From: Bacteroidetes bacterium HGW-Bacteroidetes-8
GTDB taxonomy: Bacteria > Bacteroidota > Bacteroidia > Bacteroidales > UBA932
DNA length: 64,000 nucleotides
Assembly: GCA_002840895.1 (NCBI GenBank)
Contig: PHCZ01000006.1
Location: 62,001 to 126,000 of the forward strand
Direction: 5' to 3'
Within the stretch, counting starts at the first letter, position 1, and each line of letters starts with the position of its first letter. The position numbers and the translations under genes are program-made. The notes beneath the pieces are model-generated. The model searched no databases and had not been told where the DNA came from. It saw only the letters and a list, made by a program, of their open reading frames with translations. This document shows positions 54,718 through 57,076 of this stretch, piece by piece.

Positions 54718-54936
54718 ATGAAACAATCCAACACTTTAGACGCCTCAAAAAAGATTTTCTTATTTTTTTACAATGCTATGGAAGAGCAGCAGCTCTATCT
54801 GGATGAAAATTTCTCTGCAGAGAGGCTTGCCTCGCTCTGCGGATGCTCGTTAGAGGAGCTTGACGCTCTCACCCTTGATGAGTTTGCCCTTACTGCAAGC
54901 GGGATAATCTCTATGTACAGGGAACAGCATTGCTGA
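54718..54936 (+). CDS. Small 72-residue protein resembling an AraC-type HTH first half
   Basis: A soluble 72-residue protein. Residues 21-45 (MEEQQLYLDENFSAERLASL) resemble the start of AraC-type DNA-binding regions, in which a short helix precedes the first HTH, but the second HTH is absent. Two cysteines (CGC) follow. It could be a remnant or a small standalone domain. A -7 box precedes it, so it is probably transcribed. No named family is claimed. Confidence 0.5.
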   Translation: MKQSNTLDASKKIFLFFYNAMEEQQLYLDENFSAERLASLCGCSLEELDALTLDEFALTASGIISMYREQHC

Positions 54937-54959
54937 ATGAATTATTTTTTCTAAATTTG
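54930..54959 (+). promoter_or_regulatory. Bacteroidota-type promoter of the EF-G-like pseudogene
   Basis: TTG at 54930-54932, a 19-base spacer and TAAATTTG at 54952-54959 match the consensus. A transcript would start near 54966, about 42 bases before the ATG at 55008. Confidence 0.65.
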
Positions 54960-55007: not shown

Positions 55008-57076
55008 ATGAAAGTCTATCCCACTCAAAACATCCGCAACGTAGTCCTGATAGGAAATACGAAGTCTGGTAAAACTACCCTTGCGGAAACTATGTTGTTT
55101 GAAGGTAAAGTGATTGATCGCAGAGGATCGGTTGAGGCAAAAACAACAGTTAGTGAATCGATACTCCCGGCTCGGATGATTTTGTAGGAGGAGTGATTTC
55201 TGCCTTCAAGGTAGCAGATGCAGGTGTTATGATTATAAATGCACAGCAAGGTGTTGAAGTTGGGACAGAGATTCTTTCGCGTTATGCAGAGAAACACTCA
55301 AAACCGCTTATCATAGCAGTTAACCAGTTAGATCACGAGAAGGCAAACTGGGAGAGTACTTTAGAGTCAGTAAAACAGACCTTTGGGAAAAAGGTTGTAG
55401 TTATACAGTTTCCTGTTGAGGTTGGGCCGGCCTTCAACTCATTTATTGATGTCCTCAAAATGAAGATGTACCTCTTTAAAGATGAGAACGGAACCAGAGA
55501 GGAGCACGATATTCCTGCAAACTTAAAAGATCAGGCAGATGAGTATCACCAGATTCTTGCAGAACTTGCAGCAGAGAATGACGAAGCTTTGATGGAGACA
55601 TTCTTTGACAAAGGAGTTCTTACAGAGGAGGAGATTAGAAAAGGGCTCTCAATTGGGCTTGCTCAGTGCGAGATAATGCCTCTTTTCTGCCTCTCAGCCA
55701 AAAAAGATATCGGAGTAAAAAGGCTGATGGAGTTTATCATCAACGTTGGACCTAACCCGGACAAATACGAACAGAAGCTTAAAAATGGAGAGAGTGTACC
55801 TTGCAGCGTTAACGGACAGACCTCTCTGTTTATTTATAAAACTGCAATTGAACCACACATTGGTGAGGTTTCATACTTTAGGGTAATGTCGGGAAAACTA
55901 ACCGAGGCTATGGATGTGGTTAACCACGAAACCGGCACCAAGGAGAGGATCTCTACAATATTTGCGGTTGCCGGCAAGAAAAAAGAGAAGCTTACAGAGA
56001 TTGTTGCCGGAGATATTGGCTGCAGTGTTAAACTTAAATCCGTTAAGACTAACCAAACTCTCAACGCCGGGCCTAAAGAGTGGGCTTTTGAGTCGATTGT
56101 ATTTCCCCCTTCAAAATTCAGAACAGCTATCAAGGCTAAGGTTGAGAAAGATGAGGAGAAATTGGGTGAACTTTTAAACAAAGCACATTCAGAAGATCCT
56201 ACAATCCGCGTAGAGTACTCGAAAGAGTTAAAACAGACAATCCTCAGCGGACAGGGAGAGCACCATATTAATATTCTCAAGTGGCACCTCAATAACACAC
56301 ATAAGATAGAGATAGAGCTATTCTCTCCAAAGATTCCATACAGAGAGACCATTACCAAAGTAGCTACAGCAGATTATCGTCACAGAAAACAGTCCGGTGG
56401 TGCCGGTCAATTTGGTGAGGTTCACCTTCTTATAGAACCGGTTCTGGAGGGGGTTCCTGCAGGTAACAGGTTTAAAATAGATGGTAAGGAGCTTGTTCTT
56501 AACCTAAAGGGTAAAGAGGAGTTCACTATGGATTGGGGCGGTAAACTGGAGTACTACAACTGTATCGTTGGAGGTGCAATTGATGCCCGTTTTATGCCTG
56601 CAATTCTAAAAGGAGTTATGGAGAAGATGGAGGAGGGACCTCTTACAGGATCTTACGCCCGTGATATTCGTGTATTTGTATACGACGGAAAGATGCACCC
56701 GGTTGACTCAAATGAGATATCATTCAAACTTGCAGGTCGTAACGCATTCAAAGAGGCCTTTAAAAAAGCGGGTCCAAAGATTATGGAGCCTATTTACAAT
56801 GTAGAGGTACTTGTTCCAAGTGACTGTATGGGTGATGTTATGAGTGATCTTCAAAACCGTAGGGCTATGATTGAGGGGATGAGCAGTGACAAGGGATTTG
56901 AGATTATTAAAGCAAGAGTTCCTCTGGCAGAGATGCATAAATACTCGACCACCTTGAGTTCACTAACCTCGGGAAGAGCAACATTCACAATGACATATGC
57001 AGATTACCAACAGGTTCCTGCAGATGTTCAGGACAAATTGCTCAAAGAGTACGAGGCAAACGAGAAGGATGAGTAA
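55008..57076 (+). pseudogene. EF-G-like translational GTPase with an internal deletion and frameshift
   Basis: The first frame (55008-55187) gives 59 codons: an N-terminus with the P-loop GNTKSGKTTLAETM, then VEAKTTVSE, after which it runs into an unrelated tail and a TAG. A second frame, open from 55157 to 57076, begins at IDTPGSDDFVGG (the G3 region) and continues through an intact EF-G paralogue to its C-terminus. About thirty codons of switch I and the lead-in to G3 are missing, and the two parts are in different frames. A simple ribosomal frameshift cannot restore the missing part. The rest of the frame is clean, so the break is recent or an assembly error. The promoter upstream is intact. 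Its stop overlaps the LolD-like start by three bases. Confidence 0.85.

Follow-up and report, generated by a model that had tools for sequence, protein, structure and literature searches.

A Bacteroidales EF-G2 (fusA2) gene with an 85-nt gap in its G-domain coding region: young null allele or assembly artifact?

The broken gene and its surroundings

Near the end of the window, by which we mean the whole 64,000-nt stretch of DNA analyzed here, a gene for a paralog of elongation factor G is laid out in two reading frames on the forward strand. The features needed to follow the argument are:

54930-54932, forward strand: TTG resembling a -33 element, with a spacing of 18-22 nt in 17 of 19 genus sequences
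54952-54959, forward strand: -7-like box TAAATTTG (TAnnTTTG), found ahead of the start in all 19 sequences
55008-55187, forward strand: N-terminal EF-G2 piece of about 50 native residues with the P-loop, followed by out-of-frame residues and a TAG stop (NF058620 residues 1-51, E 1.3e-19)
55156-55157, forward strand: point at which 85 nt are missing in comparison with both sisters, with 1-nt microhomology (sister alignments)
55157-57076, forward strand: rest of the EF-G2 frame, uninterrupted from IDTPG up to the stop (NF058620, 1039 bits)

The first open reading frame (55008-55187) starts with ATG and encodes 59 residues; it carries the P-loop and the segment VEAKTTVSE, then shifts frame and ends at the TAG at 55185-55187. 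The second (55193-57076) starts with GTG and encodes the remaining 627 residues of the paralog. Its phase is preceded by a TGA at 55154-55156, stays open over 639 codons and is clean up to 57076, the first usable start being the GTG at 55193 and the next the ATG at 55229. Genes of this family (NF058620) should have a single continuous frame of about 717 codons, which here is broken at 55156/55157, inside the G-domain coding region.

Comparison with the two sister genomes gives the exact size of the gap. Relative to L011, 85 nt (28 codons plus 1) are missing at this junction, and an independent blastn comparison of the whole contig with the second sister, G016, returned the identical 85-nt step (117156/117156 versus 122144/122229). 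Residues 1-51 and residues 79-717 of the sister open reading frame align to our sequence separately and in different frames. A single base is common to the junction and the end of the missing segment. An earlier sequence-only reading had described an EF-G paralog with intact start, P-loop and VEAKTTVSE, from which about thirty codons including switch I had been lost with a shift of frame, leaving some 640 clean codons; the family profile match, the two-frame alignment of the sister protein and the counts above confirm this description throughout.

The same reading had called the promoter intact, which holds in the comparison with relatives. Twenty sequences were tried and 19 used, L030 being left out because its start was not found. 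The spacer between the TTG and TAAATTTG is 19 nt in our sequence, and a TAnnTTTG would occur by chance about 0.05 times per 80 nt of this window. We take both motifs to be promoter elements because they resemble the -33/-7 consensus. The possibility that the first codons hold a conserved RNA element was also considered and dropped: synonymous divergence over codons 1-50 is 0.445 among 21 genus copies, a value between the extremes of the remaining blocks (0.378-0.517).

Directly upstream of the gene lies a small open reading frame of 72 residues (54718-54936, forward strand), the end of which overlaps the -33 region. Its relatives were found near the EF-G2 gene in 10 of the 19 flanking loci searched, diverging fast at 29-83% identity. 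The sole Pfam match falls below the cut-off (Sp-CxC, E 0.0017); by eye the product resembles half of an AraC-type helix-turn-helix.

Family assignment and the G domain of intact relatives

On the NCBIfam model for Bacteroidales elongation factor G2 (NF058620, cut-off 1000 bits), the 627-residue downstream part scores 1039.2 bits and the 59-residue piece 70 bits over positions 1-51, while the intact sister protein reaches 1190.4 bits over 717 of 717 positions. On the canonical EF-G model (TIGR00484, cut-off 659.4 bits), neither the truncated part (462.5 bits) nor the intact sister (507 bits) reaches the cut-off. According to Pfam, the downstream part has domains II-V in full and half of the GTP-binding domain. 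By these profile scores, the gene is assigned to Bacteroidales EF-G2 (fusA2), an alternative translocation factor; the assignment identifies the paralog with the known EF-G2 of Bacteroides (BT_2167 type), a point which the sequence-only reading had missed. It differs from that family in the missing 85 nt and the broken frame. The genome also encodes a canonical EF-G (L002; 1021.9 bits on TIGR00484, 443.4 bits on NF058620), which has the same domain order as EF-G2 at about 30% identity and, unlike EF-G2, has RGITI. These two were the only ones found; no second EF-G2 copy was seen in the genome.

The catalytic His, the Lys of the NKxD motif and the Thr of switch I are residues with recognized roles in EF-G. 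Among 32 close relatives of the broken gene, all read DTPGSDDF in place of DTPGHVDF (as does the window sequence), NQLD in place of NKMD, and Ser at the switch-I Thr position. In six order relatives, the His is found in none and NK is retained in one; all 38 relatives checked share the P-loop GKTT. G5, unmatched by the pattern used, was left out of this comparison. Judged by these motifs, the catalytic His of EF-G is absent even from intact EF-G2, as in most cases is the Lys of NKxD, so the loss of GTPase function is not in itself the novelty here, and the gene would not be a case of a normal GTPase losing its G domain. The constancy of GKTT implies that nucleotide binding is apparently selected, and a retained P-loop next to a replaced His fits a factor that binds nucleotide and does not hydrolyze it. 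Passages of PMC10294740, PMC6989115 and PMC12775393 describe EF-G2 (fusA2) as translocating without GTP hydrolysis in Bacteroides and as non-essential outside the gut.

Among solved structures, the closest is a chain of 718 residues (PDB 7uvp and 8dmf), which can be aligned with the intact sister protein over its full length (E 5.4e-269) and, unlike the gene in the window, is intact. It shares the G3 (DxPGS) and G4 (NQLD) departures of EF-G2. It is worth pointing out that this chain, labeled "Tetracycline resistance protein TetQ", carries the EF-G2-type CPGSDDF and NQLD; the label looks wrong, given the 1190 bits that its full-length match, the sister protein, reaches on the EF-G2 model.

Relatives, selection and the age of the break

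The sequence-only reading had proposed a comparison with sister strains, and intact versions were indeed found. In 23 of the 24 other genomes of the genus (L010-L032), the site lies in one open frame; L031 ends at a contig end and L032 matches residues 2-492 only, both being open across the site. In the 24th genome (G003), a C-terminal piece at the end of a contig is all that there is of the gene, and the site is unreadable. The junction pattern, searched with at most three mismatches, occurs in one of the 25 genus genomes, namely this one, and there is no second broken EF-G2 among the readable genus genomes. A disrupted frame among intact orthologs, as expected of a pseudogene, is thus what we find. 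The named relatives are mostly uncultured Bacteroidales assemblies, with one complete genome, that of Bacteroidales bacterium CF.

The order was sampled with 199 genomes, each at least 95% complete. NF058620 is matched above the cut-off in 185, a count that includes the broken genome because its remainder scores 1039, and no internal stops occur in EF-G2 among the order matches listed. Twelve of the 14 genomes below the cut-off have a best E value of 1e-94 or one weaker than 1e-110, which is nothing beyond a match at the level of canonical EF-G; the other two (G076, G108) have EF-G2 matches that fall short of the cut-off. EF-G2 is missing from all three sampled genomes in each of two families, and from one sampled genome in each of six further families, where an assembly gap is possible. 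EF-G2 thus appears to have been lost more than once in the order, and, taking the 12 of 199 genomes with no better than an EF-G-level match at face value, we infer that it is dispensable in evolution.

Within the genus, EF-G2 is under strong purifying selection. Between the broken gene and L011, 108 codons differ synonymously and 11 non-synonymously over 399 and 1479 sites, respectively, from which a crude dN/dS of about 0.03 follows. When changes were assigned with both sisters and four outgroups, the branch leading to the broken gene carried 10 synonymous and 2 non-synonymous changes (46 unassigned), much like the sister branches with 10 and 2 (38 unassigned) and 17 and 1 (69 unassigned). 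So few replacements have a probability of about 8e-6 under a crude neutral expectation. Purifying selection acted for nearly the whole of this branch, and the relaxation that would be expected after a break is not visible in these counts. Being so far from neutrality, they leave little time since any inactivation, and the break must therefore be very young or not real. The earlier suggestion of a young deletion or a sequence error is borne out in this form, by the selection on the branch and by the gap against both sisters.

Deletion or artifact, and the fate of the downstream frame

Between these two readings the evidence is divided. We favor, with a probability of roughly 0.58, a young null allele of fusA2 created by a real deletion, either confined to the strain or very recent. 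A tentative but serious rival holds that the organism has an intact EF-G2, and that the joining of contigs or strain variants dropped 85 nt from the sequence. Continued purifying selection on this branch and the intact state of the readable genus copies are what such an artifact would leave behind, and the junction has only 1 nt of microhomology. The assembly is a draft of 22 contigs with two runs of N in the window's contig, so a local misjoin is possible; however, neither run is near EF-G2 and the site is unique sequence. A chimeric contig is also unsupported: identity to either sister stays high before and after the junction and, followed along the gene, shows no break there of the kind expected in a chimera. 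A DNA search for the missing piece in the rest of the assembly, run without a positive control, came back empty and likewise gives a second copy or a displaced piece no support.

The level of indel noise was gauged in a survey of 319 sister open reading frames of at least 120 residues in 400 kb, taken from mechanical lists that include some antisense frames, of which 238 are collinear over at least 85% of their length. As many as 231 match in one intact piece. The seven candidates comprise two split matches in the same frame, four single stops, each near the end of an open reading frame, and EF-G2, the only one with a change of frame. As the sole clear frame break among 238 conserved frames on the contig, it speaks against general indel noise as the explanation. 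When the survey was reversed, the sister showed 10 candidates among 237, one of them with frame changes, so that about one break per 240 open reading frames is not unusual on either side. The unique site, the survey and the unstepped identity slightly favor a real deletion, and the artifact is somewhat less likely than the young null allele. In either event, the case is one of ordinary gene loss or of an artifact, and it concerns a damaged gene for a known spare factor in a single genome.

If the deletion is real, the proposed course is a recent inactivation of fusA2 by the loss of 85 nt from its G-domain coding region. Since the promoter is intact, transcription would be expected to continue from it, and translation would stop after 59 codons. 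A restart at the GTG at 55193 would yield a product without P-loop, switch I or DTPG; lacking these, the truncated G domain would probably not fold and the allele would be null. The cell would then depend on its canonical EF-G.

The sequence-only reading had suggested that the downstream frame might still be translated from this GTG. This is possible on paper, and nothing was found that speaks for a function. That termination and reinitiation there produce a functional EF-G2 without the front of its G domain is very improbable in our estimate. The GTG does lie 5 nt after the TAG with an AGGAGG-like stretch ahead of it, and domains II-V are complete, but the AGGAGG consists of the codons for VGG, is also present in intact relatives, and is too close to the GTG. 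The truncated product would also forgo the P-loop that appears to be under selection, half a G domain is expected not to fold, and none of the 23 readable genus genomes lacks the N-terminal part. The description of EF-G2 as independent of GTP hydrolysis, in passages of PMC10294740, PMC6989115 and PMC12775393, makes some activity of the truncated protein conceivable; even so, it would be surprising if domains II-V with half a G domain bound ribosomes and promoted some translocation. Less credible still, and hardly worth entertaining, is a programmed -1 frameshift that would yield, from the two frames, a fused EF-G2 lacking switch I: both frames are open across their overlap (55157-55187), but a search of that overlap found no canonical slippery heptamer, and the intact sisters need no shift, so this candidate was rejected.

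As it stands, the young null allele has little significance, being a single damaged copy of a known and dispensable factor. If the allele were both real and functional, it would bear on the need for a G domain in an EF-G that works independently of GTP hydrolysis, and a truncated EF-G2 would offer a natural test of whether EF-G2 needs its G domain at all.

A second clean step was seen outside the window on contig C8 of G000, near 235463, where the sequence differs by about 190 nt from the sister G016 just after the end of an open reading frame.
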